This document shows, one piece after another, positions 378 through 11,836 of a DNA stretch of 32,883 nucleotides. The stretch lies in NCBI GenBank assembly GCA_026709535.1, contig JAPOST010000131.1, positions 1 to 32,883 on the forward strand, given 5' to 3'. How positions within the stretch are numbered: position 1 is the stretch's first letter; each line of letters opens with the position of its first letter. The translations under genes were made by a program, and so were the position numbers. Origin of the DNA: Rhodospirillaceae bacterium. Its GTDB lineage: Bacteria; Pseudomonadota; Alphaproteobacteria; Bin65. Under the pieces are notes generated by a model. That model did no database searches and was not told the DNA's origin. It was given only the letters and a program-made list of their open reading frames with translations.

Positions 378-1421
378 TGTCTCCAGCCGCTGATATGTCG
401 GGTTCAGGCCGCCCGTGCGTTGTCCGATCTGGTGTCTCCCTGAGGAGGTGCCGAGATGAACTGGACACCGTGGCTTCGGGAGCGCAGGATGAAGACGTTC
501 AAGGATGTGCCGGAACGCCTCGAGACGCCGCAGCGTTGCCGGGGATGGCGCTGGCGACACCGTCATGAGGAAGAGGGGCTGGGGGGTCTGTTCGACCGCA
601 AGGGTTCCGGTGGACCGGATCGCGGGGAGGCCCGAAATGTATCGCACCCACTCCATGGGCTGGACCGTGAAGCCTTTCCACGAGCATCTGCAGGCGCGTG
701 ACGACGCCCCCTCGAGCGACACCTGGACCAAGACCGCCCCGACGCGGCGCACACGCGCAAGATCCCTTCGGCCCTCCCGGTTGCCGAAGAGGGCACGGCG
801 TCGACCTTCCGGGGTGTTCACGTGCCACGGTCTGCACGGCTCGCGGCAGCCACTCCTTCCAGGCTCCGGAAGCAGGCGGCCTCGCGCCCCTTGCCGCCTG
901 CTCCCCCAAAGCGAGGGGCGCTCCGAGCGCGCCTTCGGCACAGTGCAGGATCGCCTGGTCAAGGAACGCGCCCTGGCCGACATCACCACCCTCAAGTCCG
1001 CCCACCGCTTCATCAGGGACCACCATCTGCCGGACCACAACCATCGTTTCGCAGTCCCGCCCGAACGCGAGGACAAGGCCTTCGTGTCGCTGGTCCAACC
1101 CGACAGGATCGACGAGACCCTCTGCTGCCGCGCCGCAGCGCCATCACGACGTCAAGGCGCGGGTTCGGGAGCACGAAGACCCGCACGGCACCCGCGCCGT
1201 CTTCCACGGCCCACGCGGCCGCGCCCGCTACCGGAGCAACGCAGAACCGATCGAAACACCCACCGGGAAGGCCGCGTGAACCCCTGCGATGCGACCGAAC
1301 CCACCCCTGGGGACAAGGGAACAGCCGTCCTGCGCCTGACCACGTCACCACAGGGGCAACAACAACAGAAGCGGACAATTGATGGGCTGCCTGAACCGCA
1401 CATATCTAATTGCTAGCGACA
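378..1421 (+). mobile_element. Decayed ISNCY-type insertion sequence
   Basis: The left part (about 378-437) and the reverse complement of the right part (about 1360-1421) match well: both contain GATATGT, then GGTTCAGGC, GCCC and TTGTCCG in the same order and spacing, and both outer ends read TGTC...GACA. This is an imperfect terminal inverted repeat of about 55 bases. Between the ends lies a broken transposase of the ISNCY type. The element is about 1.04 kb, much shorter than a working member of that group, so there are internal deletions as well as frameshifts. No clear target-site duplication is visible outside the ends. It cannot move on its own. The exact outer ends are uncertain by a few bases. 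Confidence 0.7.
456..1279 (+). pseudogene. ISNCY-family transposase remnant (frameshifted, deleted)
   Basis: Family-like pieces occur in order but in different frames. An N-terminal helix-turn-helix-like stretch starts near 487. A piece at about 633-735 reads YRTHSMGWTVKPFHEHL followed by TWTK, like the Y-R-x-x-Y-x-G-F-N-V-R-H-F-H-E-x-L and Y-T-W-x-K segment of ISNCY transposases. At about 910-1130 come RSERAFGTVQDRLVKE and LPDHNHRFAVPP, the hallmark end of the catalytic domain. A third frame at about 1142-1231 gives VREHEDPHGTRAVFHGPR, the usual C-terminal tail. The segment between the last two pieces, which normally carries the N-D-N-T-V motif, is missing, as is most of the central catalytic core. 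A GAGGAG ribosome-binding site precedes the ATG at 456. Clearly non-functional. Confidence 0.72.
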
Positions 1422-1848: not shown

Positions 1849-1876
1849 TTGACTCAAACATCGGTTTCAGTAGGTT
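1849..1876 (+). promoter_or_regulatory. Possible sigma-70 promoter of the regulator-crotonase-Nudix operon
   Basis: TTGACT at 1849-1854 is followed after 16 bases by TAGGTT at 1871-1876. The first hexamer is close to the consensus, the second is weaker. It lies 32 bases before the regulator start codon, a sensible leader length. This is pattern matching only. Confidence 0.35.
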
Positions 1877-1907
1877 CTGTCAGGATCGACATGCGGAGAG
1901 ATCGGGA

Positions 1908-2474
1908 ATGGACATCTCACCCGTAATGCAAGCCTACATCCTCCATTGGGGAGAAATGGGAACATGCTGGGGCGTCAATCGCACGGTCGCTCAGATTCAT
2001 GCGCTGCTTTATCTCGTCGGACGTCCGCTGCCGGCCGACGAAATTGCTGCCACGCTGAAGGTGGCGCGCTCGAATGTCAGTACCAGCATACGCGAGCTAC
2101 AGGCCCAGAAACTGATCAACCGCACCCACGTACTGGGCGATCGCCGTGATCATTTCGAGGCAGAAACCGACTTGTGGACCATGATGGCGAGGATCTTGGA
2201 TGAGCGGAAAAAGCGCGAGATCGACCCGACGCTAACAATGCTGCGAAAATGCCTGTTGGATGCACGCAATGACCCGGTAGTTGATGAAGAGATCGTCGGT
2301 CGAATCAAAACCATGCACGATTTCCTGGAAAGCGCGGATGACTGGTACGATGATGTCCGCGACTTACCGCGATCTACATTAGAGACCCTGATGAAGATGG
2401 GTGGCAAGGTTGCGCGCCTGACCACGCATTCCAAGAAATCGAAGAAGAAAAAGACAAGGCTTGAGAGAATCTGA
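1908..2474 (+). CDS. GbsR/MarR-like transcriptional regulator
   Basis: A 188-residue DNA-binding protein. The start at 1908 is preceded by GGAGAG at 1895-1900, and residues from there fit the GbsR type of MarR-like winged-helix proteins: an early aromatic-rich helix (about 8-25, with WGEMG and WGVNRT), a helix-turn-helix at about 40-75 (LPADEIAATLKVARSNVS, then IRELQ), and a wing containing GDRRDHFEAE. The C-terminus is basic (K-S-K-K-K-K-T-R). GbsR proteins in other bacteria repress osmolyte uptake or synthesis genes; here the neighbours are a crotonase and a Nudix hydrolase, so the target and ligand are unknown. The stop codon overlaps the next start by one base (TGATG), so the pair is probably translated together, and it likely regulates this operon. 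Confidence 0.8.
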   Translation: MDISPVMQAYILHWGEMGTCWGVNRTVAQIHALLYLVGRPLPADEIAATLKVARSNVSTSIRELQAQKLINRTHVLGDRRDHFEAETDLWTMMARILDERKKREIDPTLTMLRKCLLDARNDPVVDEEIVGRIKTMHDFLESADDWYDDVRDLPRSTLETLMKMGGKVARLTTHSKKSKKKKTRLERI

Positions 2475-3256
2475 TGTCAGAATCGCCAACCGTTCTGATG
2501 GAAACCCGAGGCCGGATTAGTATCGTTACGATCAACCGGCCGGAAGTTCGCAATGCTGTCAACCCTGCCACAGCGGACGCGCTGCGAGATGGGTTCGTGG
2601 CGTTCGATAAGAATGACGAGGTTGATGTTGCCGTGTTGGTTGGCGCTGCCGACGCTTTCTGCGCTGGCTACGACCTGAAAGCCCTTTCCGCCTCCGGGGG
2701 CAATATTCCCTGCGAGCCGGAAGGCGTGGGACCCATGGGACCATCCCGTCTGCTTCTGGACAAGCCGGTAATCGCGGCGGTGGAGGGGCCGGCCGTGGCC
2801 GGCGGCCTTGAACTGGCCTTGTGGTGCGACCTGCGTGTGGCGGCTGAAGATGCGGTTTTCGGAGTCTATTGCCGGCGCTGGGGCGTTCCACTGATTGATG
2901 GCGGCACCGTCCGCCTGCCGCGTCTGATCGGGCACGGCCGCGCCATGGACATGATCCTGACTGGCCGCCCGGTTGGCGGCCAGGAAGCCCTCGATTTCGG
3001 CTTGGTAAACCGGCTCGTGCCGACCGGAATGGCTCTGAAAACAGCTGTTGCGCTGGCCGAAGAACTGACTCGCTTCCCGCAGGTTTGCATGCAGACAGAT
3101 CGCATGAGCGCCATCCGGCAATGGACAATGTCGATCGAAGACGCTCTGCGCCATGAGAGCCGCGAAGGCGTTACGCCGTTCCGCGACGAGGCAGTTGCCG
3201 GCGCCGAAAGGTTCGCTAGCGGCAGGGGCCGCGGCGGCGATTTTGACAATATTTGA
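2474..3256 (+). CDS. Crotonase/enoyl-CoA hydratase family protein
   Basis: A 260-residue single-domain crotonase-fold protein, the normal family length. Visible motifs are NRPEVRNA (21-28), the oxyanion-hole segment AFCAGYDLKAL (61-71), GPAVAGGLELAL (105-116) with the second oxyanion glycine and Glu113, and DGGTVRLPRLIG further on. Glu113 aligns with the first catalytic glutamate of rat enoyl-CoA hydratase (Glu144), but the position of the second (Glu164, normally Q-P-E) is occupied by Cys133 in VYCRRWGVP. Simple hydratase activity is therefore doubtful; isomerase, thioester hydrolase or another crotonase reaction on an acyl-CoA is possible. It starts inside the regulator's stop codon and its own stop overlaps the possible TTG start of the Nudix gene. 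Confidence 0.88.
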   Translation: MSESPTVLMETRGRISIVTINRPEVRNAVNPATADALRDGFVAFDKNDEVDVAVLVGAADAFCAGYDLKALSASGGNIPCEPEGVGPMGPSRLLLDKPVIAAVEGPAVAGGLELALWCDLRVAAEDAVFGVYCRRWGVPLIDGGTVRLPRLIGHGRAMDMILTGRPVGGQEALDFGLVNRLVPTGMALKTAVALAEELTRFPQVCMQTDRMSAIRQWTMSIEDALRHESREGVTPFRDEAVAGAERFASGRGRGGDFDNI

Positions 3257-3996
3257 CTCCAGAACGAAGACCGGACACCGTGGCGGCCAAGACTCAGAAT
3301 TTCACCCTGTCCCGACGGCTTGGCCATCCGCGCGAACGTCATCGGGGACGGCCGGTAACGCCGAAGGATGCGGCAACGCTGATTGTCTTGCGCCACAGTA
3401 ACGTCGGCCCGGAAATCCTGATGGGCCAGCGGTCCTCGCGTGCAAAGTTTGTTCCAGGCTCCTACGTATTTCCGGGTGGGCGTCTGGACTCGCATGATTG
3501 GGACGCCCTGCCTGGCTCACCGCTTGCCGCGCCAGCAGAAAAGATGGGCATCCGACGCAACGACGCCAAGGCCCGCGCCTTGGGGATGGCAGCAATCCGG
3601 GAGACTTACGAGGAAACGGGTCTGCTGATTGCGGTAGATGGTGACATTGGCAATGCCGACGACCAGACTTGGCGCGACTTGCGCAGGTTGGGCAAGGCGC
3701 CAGACTTAGCTCGTCTGACCTATATCGCGCGGGCCATCACCTCGCCCTACAGTCCGATTCGGTTTCATGCTCGATTCTTCATGGCGACTTATCGGCTGGA
3801 AGACGGTGATCTGGGTGGCTCCGGCGAGTTGTCGGATCTGCAGTGGATTCCGCTCGACCGAGCAAATGATTACACGATTCTGGATGTTACCGAATTCATG
3901 CTGGGCGAGGTCCGGCGACGGCTGAAGGAGCCGAGCACCACCTCGACACCGCTGTTTGCCTACCGGTTGGATCGACCGTTCGTCCGCTATGACTGA
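3253..3996 (+). CDS. Nudix hydrolase with an insertion in the Nudix box
   Basis: A 247-residue protein if the TTG at 3253 (overlapping the crotonase stop as TTGA) is used; a GTG at 3280 is an alternative start giving 238 residues, and neither has a strong ribosome-binding site. YVFPGGRLD (71-79) and AAIRETYEETGLL (113-125) are the two halves of the Nudix signature, with the metal-binding glutamates in R-E-x-x-E-E. They are about 27 residues further apart than in the standard 23-residue box, as in NUDT19-like proteins, some of which cleave CoA or acyl-CoA diphosphates. The pairing with an acyl-CoA enzyme makes a CoA-type substrate attractive, but this is inference. ADP-ribose or nucleotide sugars are not excluded. 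Confidence 0.82.
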   Translation: MTPERRPDTVAAKTQNFTLSRRLGHPRERHRGRPVTPKDAATLIVLRHSNVGPEILMGQRSSRAKFVPGSYVFPGGRLDSHDWDALPGSPLAAPAEKMGIRRNDAKARALGMAAIRETYEETGLLIAVDGDIGNADDQTWRDLRRLGKAPDLARLTYIARAITSPYSPIRFHARFFMATYRLEDGDLGGSGELSDLQWIPLDRANDYTILDVTEFMLGEVRRRLKEPSTTSTPLFAYRLDRPFVRYD

Positions 3997-10930: not shown

Positions 10931-11836
10931 TCAAGGCAGTCGGAAGGTCGTTTCGATACCCAGATCGCCCTCGGCAAGGACCTGCTCCTTCTGGACCAGC
11001 CATACCAGTTGGGCGAGGATCGACCGCGCAGCAGCTGGATACATCGCTGGCGGGATATCATTGGCATACATTTGCGGTACCATCTCGTCAATCGTGGTCA
11101 GACCGTCTTTCAGACACTGCAGAATCTGATTTTCCCGGCCGAGGCGATGCAACTTGATCGCCGGCACGAACGTTTCCGGATCGCGGATCGGGGCCCCATG
11201 AGTCGGCCAATAAATGTCGTCTCTCCGGTCGATCAGCTTGTCCAGACTGGCGATATAGTTCTTCATGTCTCCGTCAGGTGGGGAAACGATAGTGGTGGAC
11301 CAGCCCATAACGTGGTCACCGCTAAACAGGGCATTCTCTTCCTTCAGATGGAAGCAGAGATGATTGGAGGTGTGGCCCGGCGTGTGAACCGCCTCCACCG
11401 TCCATCCGGCGCCTTCGATGACATCGCCGTCGGTTGTCACCACGTCCGGCATGAAGGAATCGTCTCCCCCTGCTTCAACCACGGCGCCAGCTTCGATCCT
11501 GCCGCCGCCATGCGGCCCGAAACCGTAGGTTGGCGCTGACCATTCCTGCTTCAGCGGCGCCGCCGCCGGCGAATGATCCCGATGGGTGTGAGTAATCAGG
11601 ATGTGGGTGATCGTCTCTCCGCGCAAAGCGTTCTTCAGCGCTTTGATATGAGAGGTCAACAACGGTCCGGGATCGACCACCGCAACCTTGCCCCGGCCGA
11701 CTACATAGGTGCCAGTGCCGTGAAAGGTGAACGGACCGCCATTCGGAGCGATGACACGGCGGATCAATGGAGACACAGCCTCCACTTGGCCATATTCGAA
11801 GTCCAGAGAGCGGTCGAAAGGGATTCCGTCGGCCAT
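10931..11836 (-). CDS. MBL-fold metallo-hydrolase (LACTB2-like)
   Basis: A 301-residue metallo-beta-lactamase-fold protein. The metal ligands are all visible: HTHRDH (83-88, with His83, His85, Asp87, His88), His155 in TPGHTSNH, Asp174 in FSGDH and His213 in WPTHGAP, so it should bind two zinc ions. GTGTYVVGRGKVAVVDPGP (40-58) precedes the metal site. After the catalytic fold, the C-terminal 80 residues (IKLHRLGRENQILQCLKDG ... MVPQMYA ... LVWLVQKEQV) form the winged-helix-like tail of the LACTB2 type. Human LACTB2 is an RNase, but bacterial relatives include thioester and other hydrolases; the substrate is not determinable. It runs with a small hypothetical gene behind it. The start at 11836 lacks a strong ribosome-binding site. 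Confidence 0.88.
   Translation of the reverse strand: MADGIPFDRSLDFEYGQVEAVSPLIRRVIAPNGGPFTFHGTGTYVVGRGKVAVVDPGPLLTSHIKALKNALRGETITHILITHTHRDHSPAAAPLKQEWSAPTYGFGPHGGGRIEAGAVVEAGGDDSFMPDVVTTDGDVIEGAGWTVEAVHTPGHTSNHLCFHLKEENALFSGDHVMGWSTTIVSPPDGDMKNYIASLDKLIDRRDDIYWPTHGAPIRDPETFVPAIKLHRLGRENQILQCLKDGLTTIDEMVPQMYANDIPPAMYPAAARSILAQLVWLVQKEQVLAEGDLGIETTFRLP

Follow-up and report, generated by a model that had tools for sequence, protein, structure and literature searches.

A GbsR-type regulator, a crotonase and a Nudix hydrolase in a probable autorepressed operon of one alphaproteobacterial family

Introduction

Do three adjacent genes on an alphaproteobacterial contig, encoding a GbsR/MarR-like regulator, a crotonase and a Nudix hydrolase, form one regulated unit, and if so, is acyl-CoA what connects them? 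A preliminary description of this DNA had taken the genes to overlap stop to start and so to behave as one unit, in which a self-regulating repressor would sense acyl-CoAs that the crotonase and a Nudix enzyme of CoA-diphosphatase type would then clear. We analyzed the locus within the window (the whole stretch of 32,883 nucleotides), its source genome G000 (203 contigs totalling 3.67 Mb, in which the regulator occurs once and the Nudix gene has a single strong copy) and genomes of the same genus, family and class. The open-licence literature contained no paper whose title or opening of the abstract describes a Nudix/crotonase/MarR trio, and no description of this branch of regulators or of its operator beyond CydE.

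Results

Gene calls and gene order

The features of the locus are presented in Table 1. All three proteins scored above the cut-off of the respective Pfam model, with 38.6 bits for the regulator (MarR_2, cut-off 27), 144.9 bits for the crotonase (ECH_1, cut-off 27) and 29.1 bits for the Nudix protein (NUDIX, cut-off 21.1).

Table 1. Positions in the window of the trio, its putative control elements and two flanking features.
Feature	Position	Strand	Basis
ISNCY-family transposase fragment	505-1413	+	NF033594, 78 of 368 positions, E 1e-20
Putative -35 element TTGACT of operon promoter	1849-1854	+	conserved in 8/8 aligned upstream regions
Candidate operator TTTCAG-TAGGTT-CTGTCA	1865-1882	+	2 mismatches to family palindrome TTTCWG-N6-CWGAAA
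GbsR-type MarR regulator, 188 aa	1908-2474	+	open reading frame; MarR_2 domain; fold match 1ku9
Crotonase, PRK08259/EchA5 subfamily, 260 aa	2474-3256	+	open reading frame; NF006108; alignment with two paralogues
Nudix hydrolase, split Nudix box, 238 aa	3280-3996	+	PF00293; start corrected from TTG 3253 to GTG 3280
MBL-fold hydrolase	10931-11836	-	

One of the two stop-to-start overlaps that had been described was found, the stop codon of the regulator gene and the start codon of the crotonase gene sharing the sequence TGATG. The other, between the crotonase and Nudix genes, depends on the upstream TTG as start codon and probably does not exist. In each of the six genus relatives the Nudix gene starts with an ATG which aligns with the GTG of the window (for four of the six also in the alignment), and the would-be N-terminal extension is interrupted by an in-frame stop in three of them (G001, G002, G003); the start was therefore placed at the GTG, which leaves a gap of approximately 23 nt and no overlap in the window. 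The corresponding gaps in all six relatives are 53-60 nt between regulator and crotonase and 48-62 nt between crotonase and Nudix gene, and the regulator-crotonase gap in G007, a genome of the same family, is approximately 11 nt. The conserved feature of the trio is gene order, not stop-to-start overlap.

This order was contiguous in all seven genomes of the genus (G000-G006), the relatives having 68-71% identity to the window for the regulator, 78-81% for the crotonase and 73-76% for the Nudix protein. Elsewhere in the family the regulator gene of G007 adjoins the crotonase gene at a contig end and its Nudix gene lies at the terminus of a different contig; in G009 the crotonase gene adjoins the Nudix gene, with the regulator on another contig. 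G008 and G010 have the regulator and no close Nudix gene, nor any close crotonase except for a 54% fragment at a contig end of G010. We then searched 289 sampled genomes of the class with thresholds of E <= 1e-50 for the crotonase and E <= 1e-20 for both the Nudix protein and the regulator, giving matches in 53, 98 and 27 genomes, respectively; outside the genus the full trio was found in none of the 289. Among the places listed for this sample, which were read by eye, no regulator gene outside the genus adjoined either enzyme gene, and G017 was the one genome there with the crotonase and Nudix genes adjacent, in divergent orientation. Co-conservation, which the preliminary description had proposed as a check, thus held throughout the genus and was confined to a narrow branch.

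The surroundings of the trio have changed. The transposase fragment lies upstream in the window and may be the cause of the altered flank there, and downstream the MBL-fold hydrolase gene, which comes after the Nudix gene in relatives and lies close to it in three of 27 other Nudix regions (L106 7193-8110, L126 9300-10205, L137, L149 and L157), is displaced by 7 kb that encode a luciferase-like monooxygenase, an MFS transporter and a glutamate-synthase-domain protein. Given this fragment and this displacement, the trio stayed intact while its flanks moved. In G003 a HepT-like/nucleotidyltransferase pair of the toxin-antitoxin type (L108 7373-8019) is inserted between the Nudix and MBL genes, at the same junction as the extra genes of the window, so that this junction looks like an insertion hotspot.

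Since the trio is confined to one family, its conserved order could partly reflect recent descent. It could even be argued that the three genes are mere neighbours by descent, without any shared function, as an arrangement present in a single bacterial family would allow; we consider this very improbable in view of the retention of the trio in 7/7 genus genomes while the flanks changed, the short gaps and the common promoter region.

The regulator and its relatives

The regulator is a GbsR-type MarR protein with a confidently predicted winged-helix MarR/Mj223 fold, as the preliminary description had recognized. Its best sequence match in the PDB was Mj223 (1ku9, E 7.6e-11), which was also the top Foldseek match (E 3.5e-9) of an AlphaFold2 model built from 36 sequences (pLDDT 88.4). 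A second structure comparison with this model gave 4nb5 (Z 15.6), 1ku9 (Z 15.3 over 147 residues, rmsd 3.7) and 5jbr (Z 14.4), the next match having a Z of 10.7. With 61.9 of the 218 bits set as cut-off for the NCBIfam equivalog model of the choline regulator CudC, the protein is not the choline regulator. All eight trio regulators carry a lysine-rich C-terminal tail, for example KKSKKKK (window 2420-2471; L106-L112).

The genomic contexts of the regulator were compared at 101 loci, eight of the trio type and 93 others, counting neighbours within 5 kb downstream on the same strand. The most frequent were a TIGR01777-like SDR (Epimerase and DUF1731; 42 loci) and a DCC1-like protein (36), followed by a DUF805-type membrane/polyketide-cyclase-like protein (21), cydA (11), two DUF2071 markers (9 and 9) and DUF4166 (9). 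Pfam confirmed DCC1-like, Epimerase/DUF1731, DUF4166, DUF2071 and cytochrome bd among these neighbours; the names DUF805, DoxX, SDR39U1 and TIGR01777 are those which we take to apply. The crotonase gene was downstream in the eight trio-type loci only, and neither it nor the Nudix gene was found downstream at any of the 93 non-trio loci.

In a tree of the 101 regulators the eight from trio loci formed one clade (100/97), nested among alphaproteobacterial rows which head DUF clusters or lie in other contexts, and the 11 heads of bd-oxidase operons formed a separate clade (100/100) which excludes the trio regulators. Since elsewhere the regulator heads DCC1/SDR/DUF or cytochrome bd operons, it was probably recruited once into the trio. 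Five records titled Akkermansia muciniphila or Klebsiella pneumoniae (L021, L022, L025, L041, L086) carry regulators that group with those of verrucomicrobial MAGs, some of them identical, and these titles may be wrong assignments.

A palindrome upstream of the regulator gene

A palindrome scan of the 130 nt upstream of the regulator genes revealed the pattern TTTCWG-N6-CWGAAA. Within 110 nt upstream of the gene it occurred exactly at 61 of 100 loci and with at most one mismatch at 91, counted on the same loci from which it had been derived and many of which are closely related. Control patterns (reversed, 4-nt spacer, 8-nt spacer, swapped halves) gave no exact occurrence, and with at most one mismatch they gave 0, 0, 0 and 1. 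Support independent of these loci comes from the footprinted site of the repressor CydE, which includes the pattern without mismatch. Elsewhere in the same loci (923 kb) the exact pattern occurred 16 times, mostly just after the regulator gene. A second copy with at most one mismatch lies between the regulator and the next gene at 31 of 89 non-trio loci (without mismatch at 13; none with the reversed control), approximately 540-650 nt after the regulator start (L019-L098 and others); it was absent from the trio (best 4-6 mismatches, 8/8 rows) and from 11/11 bd-oxidase loci.

On the trio branch the operator had at most one mismatch in five of the six genus relatives, two in G002 and the window, and three in G007; in the palindrome scan the upstream region of G004 gave 8 of 9 pairs. 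The candidate in the window scored best within the 110 nt that precede the regulator gene. An equally good site was found in 20 of 2000 shuffles and, among 4652 other 110-nt stretches taken from the window, in 95, a chance of about 0.01-0.02. It lies behind TTGACT, which is invariant in all eight aligned upstream regions (window, six genus relatives and G007), and overlaps the expected -10 region. As a simple sigma-70 scan of the upstream region found no promoter above threshold, conservation is the basis on which we put TTGACT forward as the -35 element. Upstream of the crotonase-Nudix pair of G009, which has no regulator gene beside it, no operator was found (best 5 mismatches). Self-regulation, which had been proposed for this gene, is thus in keeping with the operator class upstream of the regulator genes, and autorepression is the best-supported function that the sequences suggest for the regulator, the window's own copy of the operator being weak. 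A wider regulon was sought in the source genome with the looser pattern TTTCNG-N6-CNGAAA, which gave seven places against five for the reversed control; the 13 regions inspected had sites partly inside genes and no convincing second target common across the genus.

The earlier reading as a single unit agrees with the conserved gene order and with the operator class in front of the regulator gene, and we conclude that the trio is probably one autorepressed operon, whose genes would be transcribed together.

The two enzymes

The crotonase belongs to the PRK08259/EchA5 subfamily (NF006108, 386.5 bits, cut-off 273). Enoyl-CoA hydratases use a pair of catalytic glutamates, 144 and 164 in rat numbering, the roles of which are described in the available part of PMC13126182. 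The equivalent of Glu144 is kept (E113), and that of Glu164 is Cys in 9/9 EchA5-like rows (C133 in the trio crotonase); nine residues further along, these rows have a conserved Asp. Four other crotonases in the same alignment, two paralogues from the genus of the window and two from other families, have Glu in this column in three cases, the fourth, from another family, having it one column off. As judged from this alignment, the crotonase is without the second catalytic Glu and thus falls outside the canonical enoyl-CoA hydratases; its reaction is probably one of the crotonase reactions other than hydration, with an acyl-CoA as substrate.

The Nudix protein combines its Pfam match with the metal-binding RExxEE and is a Nudix-domain protein. 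The sequence RExxEExG (R107, E108, E111, E112) was invariant in all 16 rows of the alignment, and the box is interrupted by an insertion; we assume this split box to resemble that of NUDT19. The protein scored 17.5 bits with the CoA pyrophosphatase model (NF007980/PRK10707), for which the cut-off is 134, and a separate protein of its own genome passed with 142.3 bits, as did a separate protein in seven other family genomes searched (G001-G007). With its start corrected it had no NCBIfam match at E <= 1e-5. We therefore rejected it as the CoA pyrophosphatase of this genome in the sense of family membership, though it may act on CoA compounds, and the clearing by a CoA diphosphatase that had been suggested is hypothetical.

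A profile of the Nudix family searched against the PDB gave 3qsj as its sole strong match (E 2.9e-23), an Alicyclobacillus Nudix hydrolase whose activity is given as 'undetermined' in the available part of PMC5389931. Weak matches were obtained to Nudix hydrolase 11 (E 0.0015) and NUDT7 (E 0.0096), and because of these a CoA-type substrate is possible for the Nudix protein, judged by sequence. It probably hydrolyzes a nucleoside-diphosphate compound, derived from CoA or otherwise. An AlphaFold2 model of the protein made without an alignment had a mean pLDDT of 33.7 and was not used.

From more than 100 places with a Nudix match outside the family we fetched 27 regions. Seventeen of the 27 lay near topA/rnr/DUF983 or pleD/divK with no link to acyl-CoA in view, three near an MBL-fold hydrolase related to that of the window, and in three a distant crotonase (30-34% identity) lay no more than a few kb away. 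In class genomes two members of the Nudix family are also found in tandem, in many cases flanked by rnr/DUF983 and an MFS gene close to pleD/divK (L135, L136, L138, L139, L148, L154, L165 and others).

Discussion

That the regulator senses acyl-CoAs, and that the crotonase and a CoA-diphosphatase Nudix protein clear them, was the reading put forward in the preliminary description. It can draw on a crotonase family that acts on acyl-CoAs, on the two weak PDB matches of the Nudix profile and on the linkage of both enzyme genes, seen in the genus and G009 and, in divergent orientation, in G017. We nevertheless regard it as rather unlikely, with the CoA pyrophosphatase model failed by the Nudix protein and passed by another protein of the genome, most of the sampled Nudix regions outside the family at topA/rnr/DUF983 or pleD/divK loci, and neither enzyme downstream at the 93 non-trio regulator loci examined. 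The sensing part fared no better: the relatives of the regulator head operons unrelated to acyl-CoA, the inducers reported for characterized relatives are others (sulfate for CydE, zinc and iron for CioR, in the available parts of the two reports cited below), and matches of the regulator to acyl-CoA- or CoA-linked MarR proteins were weak or low (FabT E 0.081, CouR E 0.05, Foldseek FabT E 6.6e-4 with TM 0.29). We rejected acyl-CoA sensing, having seen no positive evidence for it in families, structures or contexts. The presence of a crotonase gene next to a Nudix gene is by itself insufficient to infer a CoA-clearing module.

Starting from the predicted genes, their order, the operator class, the regulator clade and the lost glutamate, all read in the sequences, we propose that the regulator is a winged-helix repressor of GbsR/CydE type, acting as a dimer, which would bind the palindrome located after the promoter and ahead of the ribosome-binding site of the regulator gene and repress that gene. 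An inducer would lift the regulator off the DNA, and regulator, crotonase and Nudix hydrolase would then be made together. In a rival reading the regulator would keep a respiration, sulfur or metal signal of its whole family, with the two enzymes repairing or removing metabolites made under that stress. Cytochrome bd operons and operons of the DCC1-like thiol-disulfide oxidoreductase are headed by operators of this class too, and the inducers reported for CydE and CioR point the same way, but the trio regulator falls outside the bd-oxidase clade, and we hold this reading to be possible and somewhat doubtful.

As to history, the crotonase-Nudix pair is probably older than its control by the regulator. 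The simplest account would be that the common ancestor of two genera recruited the regulator once, because the pair lives without the regulator in one genus and the nearest kin of the regulator head other operons. Alternatively, the regulator may have been lost in G009 rather than gained elsewhere.

Taken alone, the trio is a modest, family-restricted operon, and the operator common to this branch of regulators is the more useful result. GbsR-branch regulators of several phyla have the same operator as a relative with a footprinted site. This makes autoregulation and regulon membership predictable from sequence, and the signal sensed by the branch becomes testable by comparing operons with very different cargo. 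We offer, as an unlikely but wider conjecture, that a GbsR branch so far without a name, which record titles place in at least five phyla and which is defined by TTTCWG-N6-CWGAAA, might respond to one common signal related to redox, sulfur or metals. It would have been re-used for cytochrome bd, for the DCC1-like thiol oxidoreductase with SDR39U1/DUF4166/DUF2071, and for the crotonase-Nudix pair, which, under such stress, would repair CoA or nucleotide metabolites that have been damaged.

Among known systems, NUDT7/NUDT19-type CoA diphosphatases are likened to the trio Nudix protein by the NUDT7 match, which is weak, and differ from it in that the trio protein failed the CoA pyrophosphatase model. 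The EchA5 (PRK08259) crotonases, for example PDB 3r9q and 3qka, share subfamily and the CRRWGVPLIDGGT motif with the trio crotonase and differ in operon context. GbsR/OpuAR of Bacillus has the Mj223-like MarR fold in common with the trio regulator; it has osmostress cargo and an aromatic cage for choline and betaines (PMC6207618, available part), and the trio regulator misses the CudC model. The closest parallels are CydE of Alishewanella sp. WH16-1 and CioR of Chromobacterium violaceum, for both of which autorepression is experimental and the cargo is cytochrome bd, according to the available parts of PMC6096048 and PMC11837568. CydE is a GbsR-type repressor of its own operon whose footprinted site 1, TATTTCAGAAATTTCTGAAAGTTCA, contains an exact match to the palindrome (TTTCAG-N6-CTGAAA), with sulfate as its reported inducer (PMC6096048, same part); CioR is a protein whose DNA binding is disrupted by zinc and iron in vitro (PMC11837568, same part). 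The trio regulator, likened to CydE by operator and description, is alike in being a GbsR-type, probable regulator of its own operon from a family with this palindrome upstream, and differs in standing outside the clade of the 11 bd-oxidase heads examined and in having a crotonase downstream instead of cydAB. The trio is thus probably of a known kind, the autoregulated operon of GbsR/CydE type, here with a crotonase-Nudix pair as its cargo.
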